This document shows positions 5,867 through 38,681 of a DNA stretch of 56,859 nucleotides, one piece after another (within the stretch, counting starts at the first letter, position 1; every line of letters begins with the position of its first letter). The notes under the pieces are model-generated. The model searched no databases. It saw nothing but the letters and a program-made list of their open reading frames with translations, and was not told the origin of the DNA. The translations under genes were made by a program, and so were the position numbers. The DNA comes from Allokutzneria sp. NRRL B-24872 (GTDB taxonomy: Bacteria > Actinomycetota > Actinomycetes > Mycobacteriales > Pseudonocardiaceae): positions 1 through 56,859 of the forward strand of contig NZ_MUMH01000003.1 of the NCBI RefSeq assembly GCF_002155965.1. Reading direction: 5' to 3'.

Positions 5867-5882
5867 CGCGTCCGCCTGGCCT

Positions 5883-19576: not shown

Positions 19577-19633
19577 TTTTCCTCCCACCGGCGCACGGCT
19601 GCGCATCCTCTGCGGCGGCGGAGTGTTCACATG

Positions 19634-20952: not shown

Positions 20953-21054
20953 GTGGCCCCCGAACGGCGGCGGATGTTCCCCCACCCGGCGCTGTCCGCT
21001 CTCTCCGACTGAATGCCACCATCGAAAGCGCTCCGCCGCCGGAGAGGGGCAGAA

Positions 21055-21663
21055 ATGCTCAGCAAGCACTTCAAGCGGGCAGTCGGGGTCGCCCTGTTCG
21101 GCCTTATCCCTGTTTCACTCAGCCTGGTCACCGCGGGCACTGCGAATGCGCACGGATACACCCAGAGCCCGGCGAGCCGCAGTTACAACTGCAAGCTCGG
21201 CGTGGCCCAGAACTGCGGCCCCGTCCAATGGGAACCGCAGAGCGTCGAAGGCCCGAAGGGTTTCCCGAGCGCGGGTCCCGCGAATGGGAGCCTGTGCAGC
21301 GCGGGCAACGCGAGCTTCAAGCAGCTCGACGACCCGCGCGGCGGGACCTGGCCGGCCCCGACGCTGGCCAGCGGCTCGAACTACCAGTTCACCTGGACGT
21401 TCACCGCTCCACACCGCACCACCAAGTTCCATTACTACGTCACCAAGAACGGCTGGAACCCGTCGCAGCCGCTGACTCGGGACTCACTCGAACTGAGCCC
21501 GTTCAAGACCGTCGACTACGGCGGACAACAGCCTCCGACGACGTACTCGCACTCCGCGCAACTGCCTTCCGGGAAGTCCGGTCGGCATTTGATCTACGCG
21601 GTGTGGGACGTCCACGACACGGCGAACGCGTTCTACTCCTGCGCGGACGTCAATTTCGGCTGA
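21055..21663 (+). CDS. AA10 lytic polysaccharide monooxygenase (chitin-active type)
   Basis: 202 residues. GGAGAGGGG precedes the ATG. The Sec signal peptide ends at TANA, leaving His33 as the first mature residue (HGYTQSPASR), which supplies half of the copper histidine brace. The second brace histidine is in FTAPHRTTKFHYYVT. The mature part is a single AA10 (formerly CBM33) domain without added binding modules. It oxidatively breaks chitin chains and boosts chitinases. The shared DasR-like operator links it to the GH18 gene about 1.4 kb away. Confidence 0.94.
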   Translation: MLSKHFKRAVGVALFGLIPVSLSLVTAGTANAHGYTQSPASRSYNCKLGVAQNCGPVQWEPQSVEGPKGFPSAGPANGSLCSAGNASFKQLDDPRGGTWPAPTLASGSNYQFTWTFTAPHRTTKFHYYVTKNGWNPSQPLTRDSLELSPFKTVDYGGQQPPTTYSHSAQLPSGKSGRHLIYAVWDVHDTANAFYSCADVNFG

Positions 21664-24892: not shown

Positions 24893-25837
24893 GTGCCGAC
24901 CCTGTCCGTCCTCGTCCCCGCCAAGGATGAACAGGACACCATCGCCGAACTCGTCCGCCAGCTGCACGAGAGCCTCGACCCCGGTTTCGACTGGGAGGTC
25001 GTGTTCGTCGACGACGGCAGCACGGACAAGAGCTGGCGGGTGATGTCGGAGCTGGCCGAGGCGGACGAGCGGGTCCGCGCGCTGCGGCTGCGCTGCAACA
25101 TGGGCAAGGCGGCGGCGCTGGCGGTGGCGATCCGGGAGGCCAGGGGCGAGCTGCTGGTGACGATGGACGCGGACCTCCAGGACGACCCGGCGGAGGTGCC
25201 GAGGCTCGTCGCGCGCCTCGACGACGGCACGGACCTGGTCAGCGGGCACAAGAAGGACCGCAAGGACCCGTTGTCGAAGCGGCTGCCGTCGAAGTTCTTC
25301 AACACGATCACGGGCTCGGTGACCGGACTGCGGCTGCGGGACCACAACTGCGGTCTGAAGGCGGGGCGCCGCGAGGTGTTCACCACGATCCCGATCCACG
25401 GCGAGCTGCACCGCTACGTGCCCGCGCTGGCGCACGCGATGGGCTTCCGGGTCGGTGAGGAGGCGGTGCACCACCGGGCGCGCGAGCACGGGCGGTCGAA
25501 GTACGGCTTCGAGCGCTATCTGCGCGGAGCACTGGACCTGCTCACGGTGGTGGCGCTGACCAGGTACGGGCGCAGGCCTGGCCACCTCTTCGGCGGGCTG
25601 GGCGCGCTGTCGGGGCTTGTGGGGACCCTGATCCTGCTCTACCTGACCGGGGTCTGGGTCTTCACGGACCAGTCGATCGGCACGCGCCCGCTGCTCACGC
25701 TGGGCGTGCTGCTGGAGATCCTGGCCGTGCAGCTGGTGGGGCTCGGGCTGATCGCGGAACTGGTGCTGGCGCGAACTCTCCAGAGCGAGGAGGTCGAGCG
25801 CTACGTCGTCGACCGCACCTCGGACGCGGATCGCTAG
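24893..25837 (+). CDS. GT2 polyprenyl-phosphate glycosyltransferase (DPM/GtrB-like)
   Basis: 314 residues from a GTG (VPTLSVLVPAKDE). The GT-A domain has FVDDGSTDKSW, the metal-binding DADLQDDP and the conserved HKKDRKDP and NCGLKAGRREVF loops, the pattern of enzymes that move a sugar from a nucleotide to undecaprenyl or decaprenyl phosphate. Two C-terminal membrane helices (around residues 225-250 and 263-290) anchor it. No ribosome site precedes the GTG; a TAACGT box 15 bases upstream suggests a leaderless transcript. It begins the envelope-glycan locus and is three bases from the next gene. Confidence 0.88.
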   Translation: MPTLSVLVPAKDEQDTIAELVRQLHESLDPGFDWEVVFVDDGSTDKSWRVMSELAEADERVRALRLRCNMGKAAALAVAIREARGELLVTMDADLQDDPAEVPRLVARLDDGTDLVSGHKKDRKDPLSKRLPSKFFNTITGSVTGLRLRDHNCGLKAGRREVFTTIPIHGELHRYVPALAHAMGFRVGEEAVHHRAREHGRSKYGFERYLRGALDLLTVVALTRYGRRPGHLFGGLGALSGLVGTLILLYLTGVWVFTDQSIGTRPLLTLGVLLEILAVQLVGLGLIAELVLARTLQSEEVERYVVDRTSDADR

Positions 25838-25840
25838 CTG

Positions 25841-26728
25841 ATGCGCAAAGCCCTGCCGCAGATCCTGTTCGTGGTGGTCGCGGTCGTCGCCGCCGCGATC
25901 GGCTTCCACGACCGGGTTCCCGAGGTCCTGGCGGGCTTCGAGCGCATCGGCTGGGTGCGCGCGGCGGTCGCGGCGGCGCTCGCCGGGCTCGGGTTGCTGG
26001 CGACCTCGCGGATGTGGGCGGCGGGCCTGACGGCGTTCGGCCATCGACTGTCCACAGTGGACGCGTGTCGGGTGTTCTTCCCCGCGCAGATCGGCAAGTA
26101 CCTCCCGGGCCTGGTGTGGCCCTACGTCGCCCAGATCCGCTTCGCCGCGCGGCACGGGGTCCCGGCGGCGGTGACGCTCGCCGTCGGAGCGCGCTTCCTG
26201 GCCGTGCACCTGGTCAGCGGTGTGGTGGTCGGCGCGGCCCTGCTGCCGGGCCAAGCGGACCTCAGCCTGCTGATCGCGGTGCCCGCACTGGTGCTGCTGC
26301 ACCCCAGGGTCCTGACGGCGCTCGTCAAGCGCATGCCCGCCAAGCTCGGGGCGCCGGAACGACTGCCGATGACGTGGTCGTCGGCCGGGGTCGCGCTGGC
26401 GTGGATGGTCCCCGCGTGGACGGCCTACGGGCTGAGCGCGTTCGTGCTGGTAACGCCGTTGGCGCCGGCGGACGACATGCTCGGCGTGGCGGTGACCAGC
26501 ACCGGCGCCTTCGCGATCGCCTGGGTGGTCGGGCTGGTGGTGGTGATCGCCCCGGCCGGGCTCGGCGCCAGGGAGGCTGTGCTGGTCGCGGCACTGGCCC
26601 CGCTCGTCGGCGGTGCGGAAGCCGCCTCGGTGGCCCTGCTGCTGCGGCTGTGCCATACGGTCGCCGACATCGCGCTGGCCGTTGGCTTCACGAGGCGGGA
26701 TTCACGAGGGGGAACCGAGGGTGAGTGA
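25841..26728 (+). CDS. LPG-synthase-TM-family (UPF0104-like) membrane protein
   Basis: 295 residues with about eight membrane helices. The segments FFPAQIGKYLPGLVWPYVAQ and APAGLGAREAVLVAALAPL are the signature of the AglD/lysylphosphatidylglycerol-synthase transmembrane family, whose members are associated with lipid-linked sugar pathways and are suspected flippases. It follows the GT2 gene by three bases and its end overlaps the next gene by eight, so the three act together. A lipid-linked sugar flippase is the best guess, by context only. Confidence 0.82.
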   Translation: MRKALPQILFVVVAVVAAAIGFHDRVPEVLAGFERIGWVRAAVAAALAGLGLLATSRMWAAGLTAFGHRLSTVDACRVFFPAQIGKYLPGLVWPYVAQIRFAARHGVPAAVTLAVGARFLAVHLVSGVVVGAALLPGQADLSLLIAVPALVLLHPRVLTALVKRMPAKLGAPERLPMTWSSAGVALAWMVPAWTAYGLSAFVLVTPLAPADDMLGVAVTSTGAFAIAWVVGLVVVIAPAGLGAREAVLVAALAPLVGGAEAASVALLLRLCHTVADIALAVGFTRRDSRGGTEGE

Positions 26729-28280
26729 CAAGCGCGCGGCGGCACTGCTGTCCGCGGTCGCGGCACTGCCCGTGATCGTGACGGTCTTCGAGGTGCTGCG
26801 GTCGTCGCGGCTGAACTTCGCGGACTACTGGTGGTTCGTCGAAGGCGCGACGCATCCCGACGGCACTCTCGACCCGGCAGGCCTGCTCAAGCAGCACAAC
26901 GGGCACCCGACCTTCATCCCGCGCCTTGTGTTCTGGGCGGAGGCGCGGTACCTGGGCGGCAACAACCACATCCTCGGCCTGCTGACCGTGGTGTTGTCGC
27001 TGGTCGTGCTCGTTGTGCTGCACCGCATGCTGCCCAAGGACCTCAGCGTCACGAGCCGCTTCGCGCTGACCGCCGCGTTCTCGTTCCTGCTCTTCGGCTC
27101 GCGAGAACTGGAGCTGTACGGGGTCGGTGTCACCGGAGCCACCTGGCTGCTCATGGCGGTGCCCGGTGTCTTGGCGCTGCTCTACGCGCAACGCGGCCAG
27201 ACGGTGCGAGCGATGATCGCGGTCGCGGTGGCCTGTGCGTGCTTCGGAGCCGGATTCGCGCTGTGGCCGATCATCGCGCTCATCGCCTGGCTGCGCCGTG
27301 ACGCGCGGTGGCAGATCGTGGCGCCGTTGGTGGTGCTGGTCCTCGCGGGTGGCGCGTGGGCGCTGTCCTTCAAGACGGATTCGTTGCAGTCGCCGCACCC
27401 GCTCGGCCCGGAGAACTACCTGTCGGTGATCGCGGGGACGCTCGGCCAGCAGTGGTCGTACAAGGACGCCGATACGGCGGTCCTGGCGGGCTCGGTGATC
27501 GGAGTGCTGCTGTTCTGGCTGGTCGCTGCGGCGCTCAAGCGCCGGGACGCCGAGCACGCGGCGTGGGTCGGGCTCGGCCTGTGGGGCGTGCTGATCGGCG
27601 TGATGATCGCGATCACCCGCGTCGGGTCCGGGGTGGACGTGGCGCTGGCCGGGCGCTTCGCGTTGGCACCGATGCTGGCAACGGCCGCGCTCCTGGTGCT
27701 CTTCGCGGTGCACAGGCCGGGACTCCCCGTGCTGGCCTGCTCGCTCGTGGTGTGCGTGGCGACCTACGCGCTCGGCACGCACCTGGCGACGGCGGTCCGC
27801 GCGCTGTACTCCGACCAGCGCGTCCTGGAGGTGGCCATGCACGTGGGTGCCACCAAGACGATCGAAGAACTCGGCTCAACCCCGGCGGTCGTCAGCCGTC
27901 TCAAGGGCATGCGCAGCTACCCCTTCAACGACGACTTCGGCATCGGCTGCGGTGCGAAGCTCGGCGCCAAGGCCGGTCCGCTGCGCGAACTCAGCACGGG
28001 GGCGGTCGATTCCGGGCCGATCGCCGGGGATGCCAAGATCTCTGGCTGGGCCGTGGTCGACGGGAGGCCCGTCGACTGCGTTCTTGTGGTGGACGGCGCC
28101 GGAATCGTGCAGGGTGGTGGCGCCGTCGGCATGCCGCGCCCCGACCTGCTGGGCGCGCTCCAGACCAGACAGGCCCGGCTCGGCTGGCGGGCGGTGGCGA
28201 TCCCGGGGATCGCGGGTGCCTCCGTCGTCGTCGGGTCGGGTGGCGCGCTGTACCGCTTGCCCGCTGTGCGGGGCGCCTGA
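26721..28280 (+). CDS. Polytopic membrane protein, GT-C-like glycosyltransferase candidate
   Basis: 519 residues from a GTG (VSDKRAAALL) that overlaps the previous gene. About ten membrane helices occupy residues 1-375, and a C-terminal globular part (about 390-519) should lie outside. The first outer loop has FADYWWFVEGATHPDG and LLKQHNGHPTFIPR, with aspartate and histidine residues of the kind that GT-C enzymes use in this loop. It is therefore a candidate for transferring the polyprenyl-linked sugar made by the GT2. No recognised GT-C family signature was seen, so the role rests on topology and neighbours. It contains GT-rich palindromes only by codon use, none notable. Confidence 0.72.
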   Translation: MSDKRAAALLSAVAALPVIVTVFEVLRSSRLNFADYWWFVEGATHPDGTLDPAGLLKQHNGHPTFIPRLVFWAEARYLGGNNHILGLLTVVLSLVVLVVLHRMLPKDLSVTSRFALTAAFSFLLFGSRELELYGVGVTGATWLLMAVPGVLALLYAQRGQTVRAMIAVAVACACFGAGFALWPIIALIAWLRRDARWQIVAPLVVLVLAGGAWALSFKTDSLQSPHPLGPENYLSVIAGTLGQQWSYKDADTAVLAGSVIGVLLFWLVAAALKRRDAEHAAWVGLGLWGVLIGVMIAITRVGSGVDVALAGRFALAPMLATAALLVLFAVHRPGLPVLACSLVVCVATYALGTHLATAVRALYSDQRVLEVAMHVGATKTIEELGSTPAVVSRLKGMRSYPFNDDFGIGCGAKLGAKAGPLRELSTGAVDSGPIAGDAKISGWAVVDGRPVDCVLVVDGAGIVQGGGAVGMPRPDLLGALQTRQARLGWRAVAIPGIAGASVVVGSGGALYRLPAVRGA

Positions 28281-28359
28281 GCAGAGCCGGATGAGGGGCC
28301 CAGTCCCCCTTCGGCAGAATTACCCCAAGCTTCGCCGACAACACCACTAGGGGGTGCCT

Positions 28360-29706
28360 GTGAGCTGGCAGGAAGAGCTGCGCAGCCTTGACGCCGAGCT
28401 GGCGGCCGGCAACATCTCGGCCGACCAGTACCGCCAGCGCCGGGACCACCTGCTCGCCCAGGCCTCGGCAGCCGGACCGACGCCGAGGCAGCCGGAGCCG
28501 AGCAGCGGCGACAACCCCTTCCCCCCGCCGTTCCGGTGGGAGAACTCCGCGCCGGCGGAGACCGAGACGACGCAGATCATCCAGCCGATCCGCGACGACA
28601 CCCCCGCGCCGCAGCCCAAGGACGAGCCCAAGGCCGAGGACGGGACCGAGGCACCGGCCGAGGACGAGGCGCCCAAGGAGGAGCCGCCAGCGGACGCGAC
28701 CCAGGTCGTGGCCCCGAGCAGCGACGCCACCCAGGTCGTCCGGCCCGTCGGCGACGCCGACCACACGCAGGTGGTCAAGCCGGTCGGGGACAACGCCGAC
28801 CGCACCCAGGTCGTCTCCAGCCAGCACGACGCCGGTGACGCGGACCGCACGCAGGTCGTCCCCGGCGCGGGCCAGCAGGCCTACCAGCCGTACCAGGGCC
28901 AGCAGCAGGGCGGCAGCCCGTGGCCGGGCCAGCAGCAGCACCAGCCCTACCCGCAGCACCAGCAGCAGCCGCACGGCTCCACCCCGCCGTGGGCGAGCAA
29001 CGACCTGCCGCCGGACTTCGGCTCCACCTCCGCGTGGCCGCGCCAGGGCCCCGAGGTGTTCGAGAGCAACAGCGGCTCCAAGACCGGCAAGATCATCGCG
29101 ATCGTGGCCGCGGTGGTGCTGCTGGTCGGCGGAGGCCTCGCGGTCTGGTACTTCACCAGCGGCAGCGGTGGCACCGAGCCGCCGGTCGCCTCGTCCTCGG
29201 CGCCGCCGCCCGCGCCGACCACCACGACGCCCCCGCCCAAGCCGAAGCCCAAGGGCGGCCAGTTCGTCGACCTGGAGGGCGAGCTGCGCGCGAACATGAC
29301 GCACGGCATCGACTCCGCGGTCACCGCGAACGTGCCCACCCCCGACGAGGTGAAGGTCCTCAAGGAGGCGGGCGCGACCGAGGTGCTGGGCTACGGCACC
29401 GACGACAAGGGCGTGAAGGTCGGCCTCTGGGAGTTCAAGGCCGGCGCCGACTCGCTCCAGAAGGTCCTGGACGAGATCGACAAGATGTACGCGAACGCCG
29501 GTTTCCAGCCCTACACGGGCGCGGGGACGCCGGAGTCCGTGAAGGCCCGGGTCAAGACCGACACCGGCGGCGCCACCTACCGGGCGCACTACAAGACCGC
29601 GACGTCGGTCGTGCGCGTCGAGGCGTTCGGCCCGGACGCGACCGCCGCTGAGACCGCGTTCAAGGCGCTGATCGAGCGCCAGCTCAAGCAGTACCCGCCG
29701 GCGTAA
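28360..29706 (+). CDS. Single-pass membrane protein with six T-Q-V/I-V/I repeats
   Basis: 448 residues. GTG at 28360 has AGGGGG five bases before it; a GTG two codons upstream is too close to that site. The N-terminus (SWQEELRSLDAELAAGNIS) is a SHOCT-like helical hairpin. An acidic, proline-rich stretch follows with six short repeats, ETTQII, DATQVV (twice), HTQVV and RTQVV (twice), at threonines 71, 114, 124, 136, 149 and 165. A Gln/Pro-rich region, one membrane helix (244-266), a Pro/Thr linker and an outer domain of about 150 residues complete it. T-x-x-V/I is the FHA-domain ligand form once phosphorylated. Its TAA overlaps the next ATG. Confidence 0.85.
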   Translation: MSWQEELRSLDAELAAGNISADQYRQRRDHLLAQASAAGPTPRQPEPSSGDNPFPPPFRWENSAPAETETTQIIQPIRDDTPAPQPKDEPKAEDGTEAPAEDEAPKEEPPADATQVVAPSSDATQVVRPVGDADHTQVVKPVGDNADRTQVVSSQHDAGDADRTQVVPGAGQQAYQPYQGQQQGGSPWPGQQQHQPYPQHQQQPHGSTPPWASNDLPPDFGSTSAWPRQGPEVFESNSGSKTGKIIAIVAAVVLLVGGGLAVWYFTSGSGGTEPPVASSSAPPPAPTTTTPPPKPKPKGGQFVDLEGELRANMTHGIDSAVTANVPTPDEVKVLKEAGATEVLGYGTDDKGVKVGLWEFKAGADSLQKVLDEIDKMYANAGFQPYTGAGTPESVKARVKTDTGGATYRAHYKTATSVVRVEAFGPDATAAETAFKALIERQLKQYPPA

Positions 29707-32700
29707 TGGCGGAGCGCGACGACGAGGTTCGCTACGCCGACGGCGCCGAGGACTCGGTGCTGTCGGCGTTGCGCGCCGCCCAGGACGTGTCCTCCGGCTC
29801 CGACGAACTGGCCGCGCAGGCAGTCGGGTGGGAGCTGAACTACCACTTCTCCCCGCAGCGCCAGGGCCTGCTGGCCCCGCTGAAGCTCCGCGAGGGGCTG
29901 CGCGCGGCGGACCTCGGCTGCGGCAGCGGTGTGCTGGCACGGGGCATGGCCGAGGCCGGGGCGCACGTGCTCGGCGTCGAGGGCGTCCCGAGCCGGGCCG
30001 AGGCGGCGCGCGTGCGCTGCCAGGACCTGGCCAACGTGGAGATCGTCACCGGCCGCGTGGAGCAGGGCCTCGCCGGGCGCGACCCGTTCGACCTGGTGCT
30101 GCTGTGCGGCCTGCTGGAGCACACGGCGGGCGAGCCGGACGGCCCGGAGAACACCCTGCGCAGCGCGGTCGGCGCGCTCGCGGACGACGGCGTCCTGGTC
30201 CTGGCGATCGAGAACCAGCTGGGGCTGGGCTACCTCGCCGGACGCCACGAGGACCACCACAGCACCCCGTGGGTGGGGCTGGCCGACTACCCGGTCGGCA
30301 GGCGCAGCCCGCGCACGTGGGGGGCCAAGAAGCTGGCCGGGATGCTCGCCGAACACGGCTTGAGCGCTCAGCGCTGGCTGGTCCCCTACCCCGACTACAA
30401 GCTCCCCAAGGTCGTGCTGGACGGCCGGGTCTTCAACCGCCCCGACGCCGCCGAGCTGATCGACAAGCTCGTGCGCGATCCCCTCCAGGGAGCCTTCGGC
30501 GGCAACGACGCGGTGGTCTCCGGCCGTGCGCTGCAACGAGTTCTGGTCGGCGAAGGGCTCGGCCTGAGCACCGCGCCGTGCTTCCTGATCGTCGCGGCGC
30601 GGTCGGCGGAGGCGATCCGCGCGCACACGCAGGACCAGATCGGCTGGCTGGTCAACAACTCGCGACGCGAGACCTATCGCCGCGCGCGGGTGCTCTCCCC
30701 GCAGTTCCGCCTGGAAACCGTTGGTGGAGCGCGGGAATCGGCCGACAGCTGGCTCCGCCACCAGGTCACCGCCGACGAGCCGCTGGTCCCCGGTCGGCCG
30801 TTGGACGCGCACCTGCTCGACGCGTTGCACGCCGGTGACCAGCAGGAACTGGAGCGGTGGCTGCGGTTGTGGCGCGAGGTGTGCCACGCGGGCGCGCGGC
30901 CGCTGGCCGAGGACGACCTGCTGCACCCGTTCCTCCCCGGGCGGCCCGGTGTTCCCGTGCTGCCGCCCGACCACCTGGACATCCACCCCGGCAACGTCGT
31001 GGTGCTGCCGGACGGCTCGACGGCGCGCGTGGACCGCGAGTGGCTGGCGGGCTCCGGTGTCGACGCCGAGCTGGCCGAGCTGCGCGCGCTGCTGGAGTTC
31101 TGCCGCGAGGTGGTCACCAGCCGCGCCGCGCACCCGTGGCAGGACGCGATCACGCTGCGCGGGCTGTTGTTGCGGCTCTGCGAGCCGATCGGGCTGCGAG
31201 AAGCCGCGGAGAGCCGCTGGGACGAGCTGGTCAGCGCGGAGTCGGTCTTCCAGGAGCTGGTGACCGGTAAGGCCGCGACGACCACGGCCGACGCGATCCG
31301 GAGCGAAGCCGAAGCGCTGGTGCTGCCGCCGCTGTGGGACGTCCTCGGCGGGCTGACCACGTTGCGCGAGCGCCTTGCCGCACTGGAGGCCGAGCGCGTC
31401 GGGTTCGAGGAACTGCTGCACAACACCCGCGTCGAGGCTCAGCGCGCCGAGGAAGCCCTCGCGGTGCGCATGGACGAGATCGAGCAGCTGCGGCACAGCC
31501 TCGACGTGGCCAAGGCCGAGGCGGTCAAGCTCGACCGCCGCATGGGCATGGCGATGCGCGAGCTGGCGGCCTCCGCTCAGCAGGAGTCCCGCGCGCGGGC
31601 CGATGCGCAGCACGCCCGCCAGGAGGAGGCCGCGGTCCGCGCGGCGCTCGACGGCATGGCGCAGCGGCTGGAGCGCACGCGCGCGCGGCTGGACCAGCTG
31701 GAGGCGTCGAAGCTGGTCAAGCTCGGGCACCGCCGGTTCTGGCCGACCGCGAGGGCCCTGCGCGGCGCCCGCGACCTGGTGCTCGGCCGGGCCGGTGAGG
31801 AGCCGGACGCGGTGCTGCGCAAGGTCGCCAAGCACGCTCCCGGCCTGGCCTCGGTGGTCGGCGCGGTCACCCGGCACCGCTCCGGCGCGGCCCGCGAGGG
31901 AGCGCTCCGGTTCCACGTGGAACTTCCCGACAAGCCCGTGCACGTCGGCCTCGGGCAGGTCGTGGAGTTCACCGGCTGGGTGTTCCACGCCGACCTGCCG
32001 CTGCGCGCGGCGTGGATGATCTCGCAGGGCCGCGAGCACCCGGTGAGCCTCGGCTACCCGCGCCCCGACGTGGTGGCGGCCTTGTCCCCCTTGGGTTTGC
32101 GCGTCCCCGACGGCAGCGGCATGCGGGTCAGGGTGCCCGTGCGCGCGGTCGCCGCGGAGCAGCGCGTGGACCTGGCGCTGCGGGTGGAGCTGGTCGACGG
32201 CACGGTGTTGGAGCGCCAGCTGCCCGAGTTCACCGCGCTGCCCGGCACCGGCGCCAAGCCGCTGTCCGTGACGTGGCCGGGCGCGGGGCAGAAGGTCGCG
32301 ATCTGCATGGCGACCTACTCCCCCAGTCGCGAGTACCTGGAGCAGCAGCTCGACTCGATCCGCGCGCAGACGCACACGAACTGGGTGTGCGTGCTGTGCG
32401 ACGACGCTTCGCCGGAGCCCGCGCGCAAGCTCATCCGCGAGCTGGTCGGCGGCGACCGGCGCTTCGTGTTCGTGGAGAACGACGACAACGTCGGCTTCTA
32501 CCGGAACTTCGAGCGGGCGCTGAAGCTCGTGCCCGCCGACGCGGACGCGGTGGCGCTGAGCGACCAGGACGACGTGTGGGACCGCGACAAGATCGCCACC
32601 CTGCTCGCCGAACTGGCCGATCCCGAGGTGCGGCTGGCGTACTCCGACATGCGTCTGGTCGACCAGGACGGCAGGCACCTCGCGGACTCGTTCTGGCACC

Positions 32701-33326
32701 GCAGGCGAAACCAGTGCACTGACCTGCTCGCGTTGGCGCAGCTCAACACCGTGACCGGCGGCGCGTGCCTCGCGCGGGCCGACCTGGTGCGCGAGCGCGT
32801 GCTGCCGTTCCCGCCTGGAACCGTGTCGGTGTTCCACGACCACTGGCTGGCCGTGGCGGCGCTCGGCGCTGGGCGGATCGCGTTCGTGGACCGGCCGCTG
32901 TACTCCTACCGCCAGCACGGCGACGCGATCACCGGCCACCGCGAGGACGATCTCGACGAGGGCCTGCCGCCGCTGTCCAAGCTCGCGATGTCCGTGGTGG
33001 GCCTGGGAGATCCGCTCACCGACGAGCAGCGCGCGCGGTTGGACGCGGTCGCCGAGTACGAGCTGACGAGGCTCGCGCAGTTCGCCACGGTGTTGCTGCT
33101 GCGCGACTCCGGCAGGCTCGCCGGTGAGGTGCGCGAACGCCTGCTGGAGCTGGTGATGGCCGATCGCAGGGTGAAGCCGCTGTACGAGCTGACCCGGTTG
33201 CCGGAGTCGACGCGCGCGGTCACGGCTGGCGCGGAGAACCTGTTCCTGGCCGCCGCACTCCGCCACCGCGCCGAAGCTTCCCGCCGCTTGGACCTGCCTC
33301 CGCGCCCCGCACCTCCGCTGGACTGA
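29706..33326 (+). CDS. Methyltransferase / kinase-like / coiled-coil / GT2 fusion protein
   Basis: 1206 residues, intact. Residues about 40-230 are a class I SAM methyltransferase (ADLGCGSGVLARG at 68-80). Residues about 265-470 resemble an APH-type kinase with a catalytic-loop-like HLDIHPGN at 423-430 and VDRE at 442-445. A long coiled coil spans about 550-668. A beta-rich domain (735-850) precedes a GT2 domain (863 to about 1100) with ICMATYSP and LSDQDDVWD. Methyltransferase-kinase-coiled coil is the order of WbdD, the enzyme that caps and sets the length of some O-antigens; the added GT2 is new to me. The start overlaps the upstream stop by one base. Likely role: making and terminating a surface glycan. 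Confidence 0.85.
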   Translation: MAERDDEVRYADGAEDSVLSALRAAQDVSSGSDELAAQAVGWELNYHFSPQRQGLLAPLKLREGLRAADLGCGSGVLARGMAEAGAHVLGVEGVPSRAEAARVRCQDLANVEIVTGRVEQGLAGRDPFDLVLLCGLLEHTAGEPDGPENTLRSAVGALADDGVLVLAIENQLGLGYLAGRHEDHHSTPWVGLADYPVGRRSPRTWGAKKLAGMLAEHGLSAQRWLVPYPDYKLPKVVLDGRVFNRPDAAELIDKLVRDPLQGAFGGNDAVVSGRALQRVLVGEGLGLSTAPCFLIVAARSAEAIRAHTQDQIGWLVNNSRRETYRRARVLSPQFRLETVGGARESADSWLRHQVTADEPLVPGRPLDAHLLDALHAGDQQELERWLRLWREVCHAGARPLAEDDLLHPFLPGRPGVPVLPPDHLDIHPGNVVVLPDGSTARVDREWLAGSGVDAELAELRALLEFCREVVTSRAAHPWQDAITLRGLLLRLCEPIGLREAAESRWDELVSAESVFQELVTGKAATTTADAIRSEAEALVLPPLWDVLGGLTTLRERLAALEAERVGFEELLHNTRVEAQRAEEALAVRMDEIEQLRHSLDVAKAEAVKLDRRMGMAMRELAASAQQESRARADAQHARQEEAAVRAALDGMAQRLERTRARLDQLEASKLVKLGHRRFWPTARALRGARDLVLGRAGEEPDAVLRKVAKHAPGLASVVGAVTRHRSGAAREGALRFHVELPDKPVHVGLGQVVEFTGWVFHADLPLRAAWMISQGREHPVSLGYPRPDVVAALSPLGLRVPDGSGMRVRVPVRAVAAEQRVDLALRVELVDGTVLERQLPEFTALPGTGAKPLSVTWPGAGQKVAICMATYSPSREYLEQQLDSIRAQTHTNWVCVLCDDASPEPARKLIRELVGGDRRFVFVENDDNVGFYRNFERALKLVPADADAVALSDQDDVWDRDKIATLLAELADPEVRLAYSDMRLVDQDGRHLADSFWHRRRNQCTDLLALAQLNTVTGGACLARADLVRERVLPFPPGTVSVFHDHWLAVAALGAGRIAFVDRPLYSYRQHGDAITGHREDDLDEGLPPLSKLAMSVVGLGDPLTDEQRARLDAVAEYELTRLAQFATVLLLRDSGRLAGEVRERLLELVMADRRVKPLYELTRLPESTRAVTAGAENLFLAAALRHRAEASRRLDLPPRPAPPLD

Positions 33327-33450
33327 TCGCCCACCCGCCCAAATGCCGCGTTTGGTGCGTTGAGCCAGTCCCGACTGCGGGACGGCGCCAGTGCCGCCTC
33401 GGGTTGGGGCGTCTTCAAGACCCGCAAACCCCGCTATCGATCATCGCGAA

Positions 33451-33488
33451 CCACCCCAAACCCTCCGCGCCGAGAGGGTTTGGGGTGG
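33451..33488. terminator. Bidirectional terminator between the GT fusion and the beta-lactamase-like gene
   Basis: CCACCCCAAACCCTC pairs perfectly over 15 bases with 33474-33488 around an eight-base loop, in the gap between two converging genes. The rest of the gap (33327-33551) has three TTGAAGAC/GTCTTCAA words but no gene. Confidence 0.88.
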
Positions 33489-33551
33489 TTGAAGACCTCG
33501 GGGACGGGGGTTGGACGTACTTGAAGACGGGCAAACGCGCGCTGAGACCGA

Positions 33552-34580
33552 TCAGCCGCCGTTGACGGGCACGTAGGCCCGCATGCGGTAGCTGCGCGCG
33601 GAGCCGCTGTGCAGCCTGGAGACCGCGTCGAGCATGGCGCGGCCCATGCGGGCGCGGGCTTCGAGCGCCGGGTGCGTGCCGCCGAAGTTGGCGTCGTTGG
33701 CCGCCGCGTCGCCGGTGAACGCGCCGGTGGCGAAGACCGCGTAGGTCAGCATCGGCTTGGCGTTGCCGTCGAAGATCACTCCGGCCTCGTGGCGGTCGGA
33801 ATTGAGCCAGCCCGCCTTGGTGGCCACGCGCTCGCGCTCGGCGGTGGACATGGTCCTGCGGACGCCGTCGATGTAGCCGTCCTTGGACCGCAGCACGTCC
33901 AGGATGAACGCGGTCGAGTCGGCGGACAGGAGCTTGCCCGCGACCAGCTGCTCCAGCAGGGAGTGCGTCTCGCGCGCGGTGGTCTTGCCGAGGTAGAAGC
34001 GGTTCGGGTTGGCCACCGGGATGACCTGGGTGTGCACGAAGCCCTTGGCGCGCAGGATCTCGTTGAGCTCGGCCGCCGGGCAGACCAGGCCGCACAGCCG
34101 GACGGCGGTGTCGTCGGAGACCAGCAGCAGCGCGGCGAGGGCGGCGGCGACGGTGATCTGGTCGCCGTAGACCTTGTGCAGCCGGAAGATCCCGTCGCCG
34201 TCCTTGATGATGATCTCCGGTGTGAGCGCGACCTTCTGGTCGAGCTCGATCAGCCCGCGGTCGACCTTGTCCAGCACCGCGACCGCGACCGCGATCTTGT
34301 TGACGCTCTGCGCGTTGACCACCGCGTCTGCGTTGTCGTCGACGGCCGGGATCACCCTGCCGTCCGGGTCGACGATGCTGACGTGCGAGGACCAGGTGCC
34401 GCGTGCCCGACGGGTCTCCCTGCGGTAGACGAAGGAGATCCTGGCGCGGGCCCGGACGGCGTCCGGCGGGGTCACGTCCTCGGGGGTCTCCGCCGGTTCC
34501 GCGGCGGCCGGTGAGGCGGTGGTGCCGAGCATCGCGGCTGCGGCGAGGCCGAAAGCGGCCCGGCGTCGGATCGTGGCCAT
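33552..34580 (-). CDS. Exported class A beta-lactamase-like serine hydrolase
   Basis: 342 residues from an ATG (MATIRRRAAFG) giving a signal peptide that ends near SPAAA. The catalytic S-x-x-K is QSVNKIAVAVAVLD, the second motif is VSDDTAVRL in place of SDN, and the third reads TKAGW in place of KTG. The conserved fold suggests a penicillin-interactive enzyme, but the changed second and third motifs make a true beta-lactamase uncertain; a D,D-peptidase, esterase or cell-wall binding role is possible. It lies within the glycan locus and so may modify the wall. An ATG 17 codons upstream would spoil the signal peptide. Confidence 0.85.
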   Translation of the reverse strand: MATIRRRAAFGLAAAAMLGTTASPAAAEPAETPEDVTPPDAVRARARISFVYRRETRRARGTWSSHVSIVDPDGRVIPAVDDNADAVVNAQSVNKIAVAVAVLDKVDRGLIELDQKVALTPEIIIKDGDGIFRLHKVYGDQITVAAALAALLLVSDDTAVRLCGLVCPAAELNEILRAKGFVHTQVIPVANPNRFYLGKTTARETHSLLEQLVAGKLLSADSTAFILDVLRSKDGYIDGVRRTMSTAERERVATKAGWLNSDRHEAGVIFDGNAKPMLTYAVFATGAFTGDAAANDANFGGTHPALEARARMGRAMLDAVSRLHSGSARSYRMRAYVPVNGG

Positions 34581-34696
34581 CTTCGCGGTGTCACCTTCGT
34601 CAATGAGCGTGCGGACGCACACATCTACCATTTCCGAAGGTGTTTCGCACACGCCTCGATCTGGGCCGAAACCTCCCCGGCGCAATTAATCACCAG

Positions 34697-34784
34697 TTTC
34701 AGCTATACCTGAAATACCCGAACGAGAACCCTGAGACGCGCAGGGTCAGCACTTGGTTGGCTCCGATTTGAGAATTCATCAAAT
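34697..34784. promoter_or_regulatory. Divergent promoter region with several dyads
   Basis: The 286-base gap between the beta-lactamase-like and small exported genes is AT-rich for this genome. It holds TTTCAG-CTATAC-CTGAAA (34697-34714), ACCCTG-N7-CAGGGT (34728-34746) and ATTTGA-N7-TCAAAT (34766-34784), each a perfect inverted repeat. They are plausible sites for a shared regulator; none matches a known consensus I can name. Confidence 0.45.
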
Positions 34785-34866
34785 GGGCTCCCAGGCGCGT
34801 AACCAGCGAATACGACGGGTATAACTGAAAGCGAGACATTCGCCGCCGACAAGAGGGAGAATCGAC

Positions 34867-35364
34867 ATGAATCGCAACACCGTGGTCCGTGGAATCACCG
34901 CAGCCGCCATTGCTTTCGGTGGTCTCGCCGTTGCCACCTCCGGTGTCGCCTCCGCCGAGACCCCCGCCCCGTGCACCGGTGCCGAGCTGACCGTCTCCGC
35001 GAGCGACGGCCAGCAGGGCCAGGACCCGCTCCACGAGCAGCTGGTCGTGGAGTTCAAGGCCAAGGACGGCGTGCACTGCCAGCTCAAGGGCCTTCCCGGC
35101 GAGCTGACCTTCTACAACGACGGCAAGCCGGTCCCGGTCACCCCCAAGGTGAAGCCCGCGGAAGAGGCCGTCATCGACGTGACGGGCACCGACACCGCCA
35201 CGCTCATCATCGACATCCCGAAGACCGAGGGCGTCCTGACCACGCCCACCGATGAGGTGTCGTTCACGCTGCCGTCGGCCAACACCGATGTGATCCGCCT
35301 GCCGTACACCGCCGGTGTCGCCGACACCCCGACGATCTCCCCGGTCGTCGGCCCGGTCGGCTGA
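34867..35364 (+). CDS. Small exported protein, DUF4232-like
   Basis: 165 residues with a signal peptide (MNRNTVVRGITAAAIA to ASAE) and GAGGGAG as ribosome site. The mature part begins with PCTGAELTVSAS, then VEFKAKDGVHCQLKGLPGELTF, which resembles the two-cysteine DUF4232 fold of actinobacterial secreted proteins; the cysteines probably form a disulfide. It has no catalytic motif. Function unknown. It is divergent from the beta-lactamase-like gene. Confidence 0.8.
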   Translation: MNRNTVVRGITAAAIAFGGLAVATSGVASAETPAPCTGAELTVSASDGQQGQDPLHEQLVVEFKAKDGVHCQLKGLPGELTFYNDGKPVPVTPKVKPAEEAVIDVTGTDTATLIIDIPKTEGVLTTPTDEVSFTLPSANTDVIRLPYTAGVADTPTISPVVGPVG

Positions 35365-35377
35365 CCCACCCGAGCGC

Positions 35378-35415
35378 GAGGTCCCGCCCGTTCCGCCCTG
35401 TGCGGGCGGGGCCTC
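35378..35415. terminator. Terminator between the DUF4232-like gene and the GT fusion gene
   Basis: GAGGTCCCGCCCG (35378-35390) pairs with CGGGCGGGGCCTC (35403-35415), one G-T pair, loop of 12 bases. It lies between converging genes and can serve both. Confidence 0.8.
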
Positions 35416-35421
35416 CTCGGA

Positions 35422-37335
35422 TCAGGTGACGGGGCAGATCCCGCAGTCCACGAGGACCTTCGCCATGCTGCGGCGGAACCCGTCCTCGGAGAAGTGCTCG
35501 CGGCAGATCCGCAACATCTCCTGCTGCACGTCCGACCACAGCTCGTCGTCGCGGAGCATGCGGTCGCACAGCTCCACCATCTCCGCGGGCGACTCGCCGA
35601 CCAGGTGCCGCGCGTAGGCCCCCAGGTGCAAGCCCTCCGCTCCGACGGGTGTGGTGACGAACGGCAGGCCCGCCGACATCGAGTCCACGAACTTGATCTT
35701 CACTCCGGCTCCGAAGCGCATCGGCACCACGTGCAGCCGCGCCGAGCTGAGCCACGGCCGCGGATCGGGCACCCGACCCACGACCTCGTTCAAGCCCCCG
35801 TGCAGCGCCAGCACGTTGGGCGAAGGGTCGGCTCCGACCACGCGCAGCGTCAGCCCCGGGTGCCGCTCGCGCAGGCCCGGCAGCACGTCGCCGGCCAGCT
35901 CCAGCACTGCGAACTCGTTGGGCGTGCGCGGGGTGTTGTCGAAGCCGCCGAAGAACACGATCCCTTGACGGCCTTCGACTCCGGGCACGTCGTCGGGGGT
36001 GACGATCGGGTAGCAGGCCACGTGCGCGGGCGTCTCCGGAGCGACCCGGCGCGCCCACTCCGCCTCCTCCTCGCTCACGCAGACCGCGACGTCGGCCCAG
36101 CGGAAGGCGCTCTGCTCCTCCTCGCGCAGCCGCGCCGCCTCGATCGCGTGGTGGCGGCGCTCCGCCGAGTCGACCGAGTGCTCGAAGTGCTGCTCGGGAC
36201 GGCGGTGGAACAGGGCTTCGGAGTCGTACACGCGGATCGCCTGCGGCTGGCTGCGCGCGATCGGCACGCCGTAGTTCGCGTAGTTGTGCGGGCGGAACGC
36301 CACGATCACGTCGTAGAGCCCCGCGCGCGAGCGCGACCAGGCTTCGAGGTCGGTGACGCCGTGGACGATCTCCACGCCCTTGGCCTGCCAGCGCGGCGCG
36401 TACTCCTCCACGCGCTCCGCCGAGACCGCGAAGAAGGTGACGCGGGCGTTGGGGTGGCCCTCGATCCACGAATCGACCACGGCGGCGGTGCGCGGGTCTC
36501 CACGGCCGCGATCCGCCTGCGGCACGCGGTCGTCGATGAGCAGGACGCGGTAGGGCGCGTTGCGGTCGCGGAGCCAGAGCGCGCGGTGCGGCCACTCGTC
36601 CAGCGAGGTCACGGCGGGCCGCTTGGCCAGCTCGTCGGCCCATCGCCGTTGGAAAACCCCGTGGTTGAGCCGCATCAGCTCGGTGGCGCGCTCCGAAGAG
36701 CTGCTGCCGTGCCGCGCGTGGTCCACAGTGGACTGCGGGATGACCCAGGTCTGCCAGCCGCGCGTGCGGAGCGCCAGCTGGAGGTCCACGTCCTCGAAGT
36801 ACGCGATCTCGTACTCCGGCGAGAAGCCGCCGGTCTGGAGGAATGCCTTGCGGCGCACGATGAGGCAGGCCGCTGACGCGTAGTCGACCTCGCGCGGGAA
36901 CGAGGCGTCCTCCCACGCGCGGCACCAGCCGTCGCCGCCGATGAGGCTGCCGGACTCCTGGACCGAGCCGTCGCTGTTGAGCATGACCGGAGCCACCGCG
37001 CCGACCTCATCGCGACTGTCCAAAAAGGACAGAAGCGGCTCCAGCCAGCCGTCGCGCACCTCGACGTCGGCGTTGAGGAAGCACACCAACTCCGTGCGCG
37101 CGTGCTGCACGCCGAGGTTGCACCCAGCTCCGAAACCGAGGTTCTCCGGCATCCGCAGAACCGTTGCGCCGGAGAGGTTCTCCGCGAGCCACTCCCCCGT
37201 GCCATCCGGCGAAGCGCTGTCGACGACGACCACGTCGTAGGGCGCGGGCGTGTGCTCGGCGAGCTTCTTGAGGCACGTGACGACCAGTTCGCGCCCGCCG
37301 TAGGAGACGAGGACGAAGGTGAGCCGCGGAGTCAC
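35422..37335 (-). CDS. Two-domain glycosyltransferase (GT2 plus GT4)
   Basis: 637 residues from a GTG that overlaps the upstream stop (GTGA). The N-terminal 230 residues are a rhamnosyltransferase-type GT2 (FVLVSYGGRELV, VVDSASPDGTG, LNADVEV as the DxD-like site, and FEDVDLQLALR). The C-terminal 380 residues are a GT4-like domain with IVFFGGFDNTPRTPNE and GAGVKIKFVDSMSAGLPFV, the region that binds the sugar-nucleotide phosphate. It should add two sugars of a surface glycan in succession. It is coupled to the pyruvyltransferase-like gene. A GTCC-AAAAA-GGAC palindrome and a GTCCACAGTGGAC lie in its coding sequence. Confidence 0.87.
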   Translation of the reverse strand: MTPRLTFVLVSYGGRELVVTCLKKLAEHTPAPYDVVVVDSASPDGTGEWLAENLSGATVLRMPENLGFGAGCNLGVQHARTELVCFLNADVEVRDGWLEPLLSFLDSRDEVGAVAPVMLNSDGSVQESGSLIGGDGWCRAWEDASFPREVDYASAACLIVRRKAFLQTGGFSPEYEIAYFEDVDLQLALRTRGWQTWVIPQSTVDHARHGSSSSERATELMRLNHGVFQRRWADELAKRPAVTSLDEWPHRALWLRDRNAPYRVLLIDDRVPQADRGRGDPRTAAVVDSWIEGHPNARVTFFAVSAERVEEYAPRWQAKGVEIVHGVTDLEAWSRSRAGLYDVIVAFRPHNYANYGVPIARSQPQAIRVYDSEALFHRRPEQHFEHSVDSAERRHHAIEAARLREEEQSAFRWADVAVCVSEEEAEWARRVAPETPAHVACYPIVTPDDVPGVEGRQGIVFFGGFDNTPRTPNEFAVLELAGDVLPGLRERHPGLTLRVVGADPSPNVLALHGGLNEVVGRVPDPRPWLSSARLHVVPMRFGAGVKIKFVDSMSAGLPFVTTPVGAEGLHLGAYARHLVGESPAEMVELCDRMLRDDELWSDVQQEMLRICREHFSEDGFRRSMAKVLVDCGICPVT

Positions 37336-38681
37336 GAGCCCTTGATCTTTCCGTAGACCTCGCGCACTGGCTGTGACCAGCGCAAGAGCTTGGTGTTGCG
37401 CAGCGCGTCCAGCTCGCGGCTGTCCAGCGCGAGGCGGTCGATCTCGTTGCGCAGCTCGCGGAACTGCGTCTGCGCCACCGCCAGCTCGTTGCGGGCGCGC
37501 TCGGCGTCGGCCTTCGCGTCGGCGACCTCGCGCCAGGCGTCCGCGAGCGTGTCGCCGAGCTTCTGCCGCTCAACGAGCATCCGGTCGCGCAGCCGCCATT
37601 GGGCGTGCCGCAGCGCGTTGTTCTCCTCGGCCAACTCCGCGATGCGGCGCGTCAGGTCGCCCCCGCGCGCGGTGAACGCCTGCTCGATGACGGCGGCGAC
37701 GCGGTCGAAGTGCGTGGAGACCGCGCGCTTGGCGTGCTCCGACGGCGCGGAGAAGCGCAGCCCGGCGCTGATCGCGTCGGTGATCCGGTCCGCCCGCTCG
37801 ACGATCTGCTTCGGCGAGCCGAACTCCAGCGCGGGCCAGCGCTGCTCTCCGGTCGGGTCGAACAGCGCCCACGGCTTGCCCAGCGCGGCGGCGGCGGCCG
37901 CGACGTGCTCGTCGGTGGCGATCACCGCGCTCGCGGCGTTGAGCAGGGCCAGCTGGTCCTCCAGCACGAGCCCGCTCGGCATCTCCACGACGTGGTCCGC
38001 CGCGAGGAAGTCGCGCACCGCGTCCAGCGGGAGGTCCGCGCTCTGCACGACGACGACACCGCCGTCCTCGGGCAGCACGCCGAGCTGGCGCAGGTGCTGG
38101 GCACGCGTGCGCAGCGCGTCCGCGTCGACCAGCCCGTCGAGCAGCAGCGCGGGGTGCGGCACCACAGGGATGTCGCCGGAGAGCCCGGCGGCGGCGAGGC
38201 GGTCGCAGGAGCGGCGGTCGCGCACGGTCAGGTACGGCTGCCTGGCCAGCGCACTGATCAGCTCGACCGGCGGCTCGTCGGCGACCCGCACGCAGCTGCT
38301 GATCAGCGGGTGGGTCCGCTCGGCGTCCGGGTCGAGGCCCTCGGTGAAGTAGGAGTGGGCGGTGCCGTCCGGGTAGGGCCAGTCCGCGCGGGCCGCACCG
38401 AGCGGGAAGGCCGGGGCCAGCACCGAGGCGTCGGCCGAGCCCGCGATCTGCTCGATCCGCTCCGAGGAGTGCTCGCCCAGCGGCGCGGCGACGTACCCGC
38501 CGTCCTCCGGGATCGGCCGTGTCCAGCCGAGCGGGGCGTACCAGGTGGCGCGCCAGCCGGGCAGCCGCCGCAGCAGTTCTCGCTCGGTCAGTCGCGCGAT
38601 GAGCTGGTCGCCGAATCCGGGCAGGTCGGAACTCGTCCAGACGGCGAAGGCCCCGATGGTTCTCGACGTGGGTTCCCGCAC
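37332..38681 (-). CDS. Polysaccharide pyruvyltransferase-like protein with a coiled-coil tail
   Basis: 449 residues. The first 280 or so follow the pyruvyltransferase family (CsaB/PF04230-like): SYFTEGLDPD, LTVRDRRSCDRLAAAG and DIPVVPHPALLL, then a C-terminal half-domain with VIATDEHVAAAAAALGKPW. Residues 345-425 form a coiled coil that ends NTKLLRWSQPVRE. The GTG start has no good ribosome site. It should place a ketal-linked pyruvate on a wall or capsule sugar with phosphoenolpyruvate. The coiled coil is not part of ordinary pyruvyltransferases; the giant fusion at 29706-33326 ends its own coiled coil with a similar SKLVK tail, so both may dock to the same partner. Confidence 0.8.
   Translation of the reverse strand: MREPTSRTIGAFAVWTSSDLPGFGDQLIARLTERELLRRLPGWRATWYAPLGWTRPIPEDGGYVAAPLGEHSSERIEQIAGSADASVLAPAFPLGAARADWPYPDGTAHSYFTEGLDPDAERTHPLISSCVRVADEPPVELISALARQPYLTVRDRRSCDRLAAAGLSGDIPVVPHPALLLDGLVDADALRTRAQHLRQLGVLPEDGGVVVVQSADLPLDAVRDFLAADHVVEMPSGLVLEDQLALLNAASAVIATDEHVAAAAAALGKPWALFDPTGEQRWPALEFGSPKQIVERADRITDAISAGLRFSAPSEHAKRAVSTHFDRVAAVIEQAFTARGGDLTRRIAELAEENNALRHAQWRLRDRMLVERQKLGDTLADAWREVADAKADAERARNELAVAQTQFRELRNEIDRLALDSRELDALRNTKLLRWSQPVREVYGKIKGS

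Follow-up and report, generated by a model that had tools for sequence, protein, structure and literature searches.

The locus lies in the window (the whole 56,859-nucleotide stretch of Allokutzneria DNA that was analysed), bounded on the left by an MsrA gene and on the right by a transketolase/PDH-E1-like gene (Table 1). All seven genes named in an initial annotation, A, B, C, D, E, G, and H, are present with actinomycete codon bias, and that gene set is thereby borne out. A and B are separated by 3 nt and C and D by 73 nt; B and C overlap by 8 nt (with C starting at GTG 26721), D and E by 1 nt, and G and H by 4 nt, the start codons of A (GTG 24893) and C being our own choice. Inside the interval lie two further genes, one beta-lactamase-like and one DUF4232; of the stretches compared, only those from Allokutzneria, L005 and L097, have them, and they are ruled out as core components on that ground.

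Table 1. Genes of the locus and domains of the protein encoded by E (positions are those of the window).
Feature	Position	Strand	Description
A	24893..25837	+	GT2, polyprenyl-phosphate sugar synthase type, two C-terminal TM segments; accessory
B	25841..26728	+	LPG_synthase_TM membrane protein, flippase-like; accessory
C	about 26721..28280	+	polytopic membrane protein, candidate GT-C, C-terminal globular domain; accessory
D	28354..29706	+	TQVV-repeat protein with SHOCT-like N-terminus, a single TM segment, and an extracytoplasmic domain; core, family-wide
E	29706..33326	+	1206 aa, terminator-polymerase fusion; core
E residues 59-219	29880..30362	+	class I SAM methyltransferase; Pfam Methyltransf_12/23
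E about residues 320-545	30663..31340	+	divergent kinase domain, putative catalytic D425, N430, D443
E about residues 556-690	31371..31775	+	coiled coil, predicted
E residues 728-858	31887..32279	+	beta-rich domain, possible carbohydrate-binding module
E residues 862-1082	32289..32951	+	GT2 domain, DQDD motif at 953; Pfam GT2 58.9 bits
class A beta-lactamase-like gene	33552..34685	-	inside interval; absent from the initial annotation
DUF4232 gene	34867..35364	+	inside interval; absent from the initial annotation
G	35422..37335	-	GT2 + GT4, two-module glycosyltransferase; core
H	37332..38681	-	pyruvyltransferase-like domain + C-terminal coiled coil; core

The predicted coiled coil of E is matched by SMC-type models at residues 552-669, contains 4% Pro+Gly, and has a 3.5-residue periodicity equalled by 24 of 500 shuffles; two control stretches gave 264 and 140 of 500. 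The beta-rich domain is conserved in 15 relatives and may possibly be a carbohydrate-binding module; a weak profile match to the C-terminus of C (probability 28%, E-value 6e-4) is suggestive of kinship between the two. The kinase domain has no significant Pfam match (0 of 12 members) and no significant match among PDB sequences, where small-molecule kinases come closest (E-values 0.15-0.18) and the top match is a designed protein.

The two halves of E nevertheless have recognisable kin in Gram-negative bacteria. Residues 1-520 are homologous to plasmid proteins encoded directly downstream of Wzm and of a Wzt that carries Wzt_C: the C. braakii pF217-3 protein is 27.5% identical (E-value 2e-30), and the P. 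asturiensis pCC1524 protein, 1457 aa running from a methyltransferase to two GT2 domains, is 38.4% identical over 10-304 (E-value 1e-35). The E-family profile scores these two at 278 and 256 bits, and a profile of the kinase region alone finds both as well (33 bits for Pseudomonas, 24 for Citrobacter). For the beta-domain and GT2 half, the nearest protein among plasmid records comes from a Shinella dTDP-rhamnose/rhamnan/ABC-exporter cluster (93% coverage of residues 715-1206, 35% identity, E-value 7e-68).

This architecture has a close published precedent, so that the initial view of a set belonging to no named pathway is weakened as far as E is concerned. As described in the available text of the O7 report, Klebsiella pneumoniae O7 ORF6 joins a methyltransferase-kinase, a coiled coil, and GT2 in one protein and caps with methyl-phosphate, yielding phosphorylated and methyl-phosphorylated product from ATP and SAM unless D441 is changed to Ala (PMC11231755). 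Both proteins begin with a methyltransferase followed by an unannotated kinase domain; a coiled coil and a beta-sandwich domain are likewise common to both, as is a C-terminal GT2 with D-x-D-D. All six SAM-site residues given there for O7 ORF6 (Y28, Y66, G91, G93, E112, Y158) occur at the published positions in the P. asturiensis protein, and it is only through this Pseudomonas relative that the SAM and catalytic Asp positions of E and O7 ORF6 were compared and agree. Aligned to it, E has five of the six (Y10, Y46, G71, G73, E92), with H139 replacing the last Tyr, which 7 of the 17 aligned rows have; D425 of E falls on D443 of P. asturiensis, the published catalytic Asp of ORF6 being 441. The two differ in that ORF6, as far as its description in that text goes, has two GT2 modules to the one of E, has its carbohydrate-binding module before the coiled coil where the beta domain of E comes after it, and belongs to a kind partnered by a Wzt_C exporter, while the host of E is actinobacterial (PMC11231755). 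Homology to exporter-linked proteins, together with a relative that has the six O7 SAM residues, argues that chain extension is most likely one task of E, the other being to close the glycan with a phosphate that is usually methylated. That the locus serves an envelope glycan and encodes a capping enzyme able to methylate and phosphorylate is thus supported by the kinship of the N-terminal half of E with a characterised kind of terminator. Weighed against this reading are the differences in layout just given, the lack of significant matches for the kinase domain, the loss of the SAM loop in three of 17 aligned relatives, an E in G057 that consists of the C-terminal half alone, and a tree that sets the Pseudonocardiaceae E proteins on their own branch, separate from those of Gram-negative bacteria, G110, and G099 (100/100).

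WbdD of E. coli O9a likewise combines methyltransferase, kinase, and coiled coil with methyl-phosphate as the expected product, according to the available text (PMC3482155), but only the methyltransferase region of E matches it, weakly (E-value 0.33), and the kinase profile of E does not match WbdD up to an E-value of 10, so that E was not assigned to WbdD proper. The O7 report itself, in its available text, calls the O7 kinase quite different from that of WbdD (PMC11231755). A rival reading takes E for a methyltransferase and glycosyltransferase in which the kinase-like domain has no catalytic activity and is purely structural; the usual kinase beta-3 lysine is not evident by eye in the alignment, and the C. 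braakii protein has Glu in place of D443 of E. We nonetheless hold a dead kinase to be very improbable: D425, P428, N430, and D443 are kept in 17 of 17 aligned relatives whereas the SAM loop is gone in three of them (L105, L009, L106), making the kinase site the better kept of the two, and the equally unrecognisable domain of O7 ORF6 is reported, in the text available, to be an active kinase (PMC11231755).

Within the family (Pseudonocardiaceae), E was found in 16 of the 72 genomes searched. H accompanies it in 16 of 16, on the same contig in 15, and occurs in three of the 56 genomes that have no E (Fisher p 2e-13, kinship not corrected for). More broadly, a class-wide search found matches in 5 of 197 genomes at an E-value of 1e-15 or below, G000 and G169 matching the whole profile and the other three its methyltransferase part. 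In 66 GT2-only loci (L012-L077), the methyltransferase-kinase profile gave methyltransferase matches only (six loci, E-values 3e-7 to 4e-4) and the kinase profile none; the E relative in G057 is the C-terminal half only. The initial annotation had treated its genes as one set, open to doubt should they be scattered in relatives. D, E, G, and H stay together in all 18 distinct E-bearing relatives examined, so scattering does not apply to them and a random mix of genes is excluded. A, B, and C, present in the stretches of 4, 5, and 11 of these 18 (counts limited by stretches that stop 8-10 kb from E), do not belong to a fixed set and are ruled out as core genes. The core of the locus is D, E, G, and H, with A, B, and C accessory.

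Of the remaining core proteins, D has a single TM segment and six TQ[VI][VI] motifs, where 2000 shuffles gave 0.03 on average and at most 2. Relatives of D occur in 57 of the 72 family genomes and in none of 48 further genomes of the order (E-value 1e-10 or below). G, matched by Pfam GT2 and GT4, was found in 18 of 18 E-bearing relatives. H only just reaches the PS_pyruv_trans model (PF04230; 26.0 bits against a cut-off of 25.3), three of 14 H relatives match it (E-value 0.01 or below), and in L099, L006, and L011 a large part of the domain's middle is absent. Pyruvate ketals on the glycan, which had been expected from this gene, are consequently weakly supported, and we have dropped pyruvylation as an established feature. 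The C-terminal coiled coil of H has a periodicity that nine of 500 shuffles equalled.

Among the accessory proteins, A has two hydrophobic segments, matches Pfam GT2 (109 bits), and comes nearest in NCBIfam to an ArnC-type undecaprenyl-phosphate transferase model, at 159 bits far under the cut-off of 529. B reaches 38.5 bits against the Pfam LPG_synthase_TM model, whose cut-off is 33.4. C, with about 10 hydrophobic segments and a DYW...HNEHP motif kept across the alignment of its relatives, is a candidate GT-C transferase; its earlier label as GT-C-like was not confirmed by any family model, C itself having no Pfam match and 10 relatives giving only single-member weak matches, none to GT-C. 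The three fit the synthase, flippase, and carbohydrate-binding-module-bearing GT-C of three-component extracytoplasmic glycosylation as set out in the available text (PMC11127046), B being flippase-like and C a candidate GT-C that ends in a globular domain. They differ from the system there described in that A is of GT2/ArnC rather than PRPP-dependent UbiA type, B is LPG_synthase_TM rather than MATE, and C fits no GT-C model (PMC11127046).

The site of the locus is fixed and its contents are exchanged. It adjoins msrA in many relatives, and other glycosyltransferase sets occupy the same spot. Two genomes of one genus, G003 and G048, share flanks of 2481 bp and 1455 bp at 83%, while the cores, about 8.8 kb in one and 12.9 kb in the other, have only three shared matches of 56-82 bp; as proteins, D and an acyltransferase family are common to both. 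Given that 15 of 57 D-bearing genomes have no msrA match (E-value 1e-60 or below), and that D and msrA lie on different contigs in three of the 42 genomes with both, msrA is not a universal anchor. Capsule and O-antigen (serotype) loci of Gram-negative bacteria have fixed flanks around an exchanged core, and the same positional polymorphism is seen here within one genus, with the difference that the host is a soil actinomycete family and the site is marked by D-type SHOCT/TQVV proteins. The locus is thus a fixed-position, variable-content surface-glycan site, capsule-locus-like in its organisation.

How such a glycan would leave the cell bears on what the locus makes. Wzt_C (PF14524) was found in none of the 12 E-bearing family genomes tested, and no ABC exporter was seen in the stretches of E-bearing relatives; therefore the exporter that normally accompanies such terminators is missing. 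By comparison, G110, of another family of the order, encodes an E-like, GT2-less methyltransferase-kinase protein of 673 aa about 13 kb from Wzm/Wzt_C, and in G099 Wzt_C is present but unlinked. The lack of Wzt_C with E would suit a locus whose products modify a wall polymer already present (arabinogalactan or a lipoglycan), with E adding sugar and methyl-phosphate and exit through the arabinogalactan exporter. In G000:C357, a Wzm-like gene (a 288-aa ORF in L145) lies beside ATPase-like, GT2-like, and large membrane ORFs, presumably the Wzm-Wzt-GlfT1-Emb arabinogalactan set, and a second Wzm-like match lies on C61 of the same genome. We think wall-polymer decoration unlikely, as the core owns the two-module G as well as the GT2 of E, and as contents vary strongly among species at one site, as in a separate antigen. 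Alternatively, the locus might yield a specialised metabolite, namely a small glycolipid that is either secreted or membrane-bound, on which E places methyl and phosphate groups. SAM methyltransferases and glycosyltransferases are commonly paired in actinomycete metabolite clusters. Kinases of the AmiN type act on antibiotics, and in the available text of the O7 report AmiN serves as a comparison for the fold of the O7 kinase (PMC11231755). However, the family-scanned genes of the window include no scaffold gene (PKS, NRPS, terpene), the homologues sit in polysaccharide export clusters, and the D marker is family-wide, all of which make a metabolite distinctly improbable.

We favour, with confidence somewhat better than even, a locus that makes a surface glycan by an O-antigen-like mechanism in which a chain is polymerised, measured, and capped. 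The chain, whose sugar identity like its membrane steps we infer, would be built on a polyprenyl lipid by cytoplasmic G and the GT2 end of E. The coiled coil of E would act as a spacer keeping the methyltransferase-kinase end off the polymerising end, with H perhaps as a second coiled-coil partner, and would thereby control chain length. A chain that reaches the catalytic end would be phosphorylated by the kinase on its non-reducing terminal sugar, and the methyltransferase would then methylate this terminal phosphate (in some species not), ending growth. The chain would leave through a transporter and be decorated outside the membrane, depending on the species, by accessory polyprenyl-phosphate-sugar systems (here A, B, and C) or by acyltransferases, at a fixed site of variable contents marked by D and often by msrA.

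In Gram-negative bacteria, coiled-coil terminators determine how long ABC-exported glycans grow and which group ends them. On a wider reading, which we hold to be less likely than not, many Pseudonocardiaceae may carry a serotype-like, fixed-position glycan locus, about one fifth of the sampled genomes with a methyl-phosphate terminator-polymerase that has lost its Wzt_C partner and is served by other export (perhaps the arabinogalactan exporter or a new one), D-type TQVV proteins being Ser/Thr-kinase-controlled adaptors. No literature on the locus was found among openly licensed papers, and the available text of the O7 paper places relatives in alpha- and gammaproteobacteria and cyanobacteria with no mention of actinobacteria (PMC11231755). 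An actinomycete terminator relative fused to a polymerase, without the usual exporter, allows the coupling of capping to export to be tested. Further, if the proposal is true, a surface-glycan locus this prone to exchange would, in soil actinomycetes that produce antibiotics, be a natural candidate for phage-receptor variation. As a minor point of gene order, a YidC-like gene separates E from G in the stretch L006.

The seven genes that the initial annotation named are real and all present by window gene and family-model analysis, and they are best read as a locus that polymerises, measures and caps a glycan. In such a system, G and the GT2 domain of E would build the chain, the kinase and methyltransferase of E would cap it, and H would assist through its coiled coil; in this lineage A, B and C would supply extracytoplasmic side groups, and D would mark the system and perhaps regulate or anchor it. 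A capping function for E is fairly probable. The host is an Allokutzneria-like member of the Pseudonocardiaceae, E being closest among named relatives to the protein of Allokutzneria sp. A3M-2-11 16 (91%) and 92% against two same-genus genomes.

Genes of the window and domains of E
Feature	Position	Strand	Description
GH18 chitinase-like protein	18107-19630	-	with CBM2
ORF	21013-21663	+	~1.4 kb from the GH18 chitinase-like gene
A	24893-25837		GT2
B	25841-26728		LPG_synthase_TM, flippase-like
C	26721-28280		candidate GT-C
D	28354-29706		TQVV-repeat membrane protein
E	29706-33326		1206-aa fusion
Class A beta-lactamase-like gene	33552-34685	-	Beta-lactamase2, 122 bits
G	35422-37335	opposite to A-E	GT2-GT4
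H	37332-38681	opposite to A-E	pyruvyltransferase-like, coiled coil
E, methyltransferase	residues 59-219		class I, Pfam
E, kinase-like catalytic loop			between methyltransferase and coiled coil; without Pfam match
E, coiled coil	about residues 556-690		
E, wing	residues 728-858		beta-rich domain
E, GT2	residues 866-1029		Pfam

The kinase-like loop of E (D425-x-x-P428-x-N430, with D443) is invariant in 17/17 aligned relatives, including three (L105, L009, L106) in which the SAM loop is missing, suggesting that their cap may be phosphate alone. Profiles of this domain did not reach known kinases significantly: the top match was a designed protein (E 0.013), ahead of weak matches to the ABC1 family (E 0.021), aminoglycoside phosphotransferase (0.15) and choline kinase (0.18), all three of which align on the D425 catalytic loop. 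In one E relative (L100:9017-12637), the GT2 motif DQDDVWD is replaced by DQDVVWD.

A six-frame search of 72,556 plasmid records with E residues 1-560 matched 11, two of them well and the other nine chiefly to the methyltransferase part. The two are a 649-aa protein of Citrobacter braakii pF217-3, directly 3' of an ABC permease and a Wzt_C ATPase with rfb (dTDP-rhamnose) genes upstream, and a 1457-aa protein of Pseudomonas asturiensis pCC1524, likewise directly 3' of a permease and a Wzt_C ATPase and containing a methyltransferase and two GT2 domains. An E-family profile aligns to the two over about 515 positions (278 and 256 bits), and the kinase-only profile matches both as well (33 and 24 bits). 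For the half of E comprising wing and GT2, the plasmid search led best to a cluster of Shinella sumterensis (93% of the query, 35%, E 7e-68), where rfb genes are accompanied by an ABC exporter and a rhamnan synthesis F-family protein. Since the N-terminal half leads to Wzt_C clusters and the other half to that of Shinella, both halves independently indicate ABC-exported glycans, whose likeliest sugar would be rhamnose.

The architecture of E (methyltransferase, kinase domain without Pfam match or annotation, coiled coil and GT2) is common to ORF6, the terminator-polymerase fusion of Klebsiella pneumoniae O7, for which the published account describes a methyltransferase, an unannotated kinase domain, a CBM, a coiled coil and two GT2 modules, as well as the addition of phosphate and then methyl to terminal rhamnose, an activity abolished by D441A (PMC11231755). 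Compared by way of the Pseudomonas protein and the published ORF6 residue numbers, the six SAM-site residues carry identical numbers in the Pseudomonas protein and ORF6 (Y28, Y66, G91, G93, E112, Y158) and the catalytic Asp is 443 in the former; the counterparts in E are Y10, Y46, G71, G73, E92, H139 and D425. Side-chain systems of three components, in which the GT-C bears a CBM, have been published (PMC11127046). The kind of system is already known; its actinobacterial, exporter-less, polymerase-fused form is new to the literature searched.

The missing exporter counts against the simple picture. PF14524 (Wzt_C, the carbohydrate-binding domain of the exporter ATPase) is absent from 12/12 E-bearing family genomes tested, and the Citrobacter permease found only two relatives in genome G000, both weak (E 1e-6 and 5e-5), one of them in what we take to be an arabinogalactan export set. 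Family models lend no support to C as a GT-C, and the pyruvyltransferase model is matched by 3/14 relatives of H. Three H relatives have lost the middle of that domain while keeping the N-terminus and coiled coil; the label therefore looks thin, and H may be a scaffold.

In 18 distinct relatives from the family, which were selected for carrying E and so demonstrate linkage rather than frequency, D lies ahead of E with G and H nearby in every case; A, B and C occur in 4, 5 and 11 of these 18 stretches, most of which stop 8-10 kb from E. Across 120 related genomes (72 in the family), E is found in 18, of which 16 are in the family, and the 19 that have H are family members without exception. H accompanies E in 16/16 family genomes. 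In 15 of these the two share a contig, with 2.9-16.2 kb between the starts of their matches; the remaining one, G062, is an assembly of 890 contigs. Three genomes (G024, G034, G061) have H without E; D and G are present in the two looked at (G034, G024). In G057, E is represented by its C-terminal half alone (603 aa).

The two E relatives from other families of the order, G110 (673 aa) and G099 (687 aa), have methyltransferase, kinase and coiled coil without GT2. In G110 the contig also carries Wzm and Wzt_C, at a distance of about 13 kb; in G099 these two are far away. Around the G110 protein (L109, G110:C35) lies a polysaccharide cluster rich in genes, among them rmlA-like and dehydratase genes, DUF2142, AT3-SGNH and GTs. 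In G169, from another family of the class, a 1607-aa protein (L127:9752-14572, - strand) carries the methyltransferase-kinase-coiled-coil unit after glycosyltransferase-like modules, as read by eye. An 18-sequence tree, from which two near-duplicates were omitted, separates the Pseudonocardiaceae proteins and G169 from the Gram-negative, G110 and G099 proteins (100/100), 9/15 inner forks being unresolved. The G169 methyltransferase is 68% identical to that of the window and groups with Allokutzneria (98/100), which suggests transfer or mis-binning.

D relatives occur in 57/72 family genomes and in 0/48 others of the order at E<=1e-10. D and a close match to msrA, the left-hand boundary gene, are both present in 42 genomes, within 11.7 kb in 39 and on different contigs in 3; in a further 15 genomes with D, no msrA match reached the threshold used. 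All 11 D loci without E that were fetched contain glycosyltransferase or acyltransferase relatives, in several different sets, with msrA within the stretch in 9. In two genomes of one genus, G003 and G048, flanks that match at 83% over 2481 and 1455 bp enclose cores with only three DNA matches of 56-82 bp; at the protein level, D-type proteins and one acyltransferase family are in both. Like capsule and O-antigen loci, the D-marked locus of the Pseudonocardiaceae has variable content at a fixed site, and as a family-wide variable locus it is new to the literature searched.

One locus often holds several D-type paralogues. The TQ[VI][VI] repeats of D and its relatives, which lie immediately inside the membrane segment, may be Ser/Thr-kinase target sites. 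A beta-lactamase-like and a DUF4232 gene lie between E and G, the former in the same place in L005 and L097 only. L005, from the close relative Allokutzneria A3M-2-11, has a second C-like membrane protein (4565-6193, 39% to C) inserted between A and B, without counterpart in the window. The ORF near the chitinase-like gene may encode a chitin-active monooxygenase.
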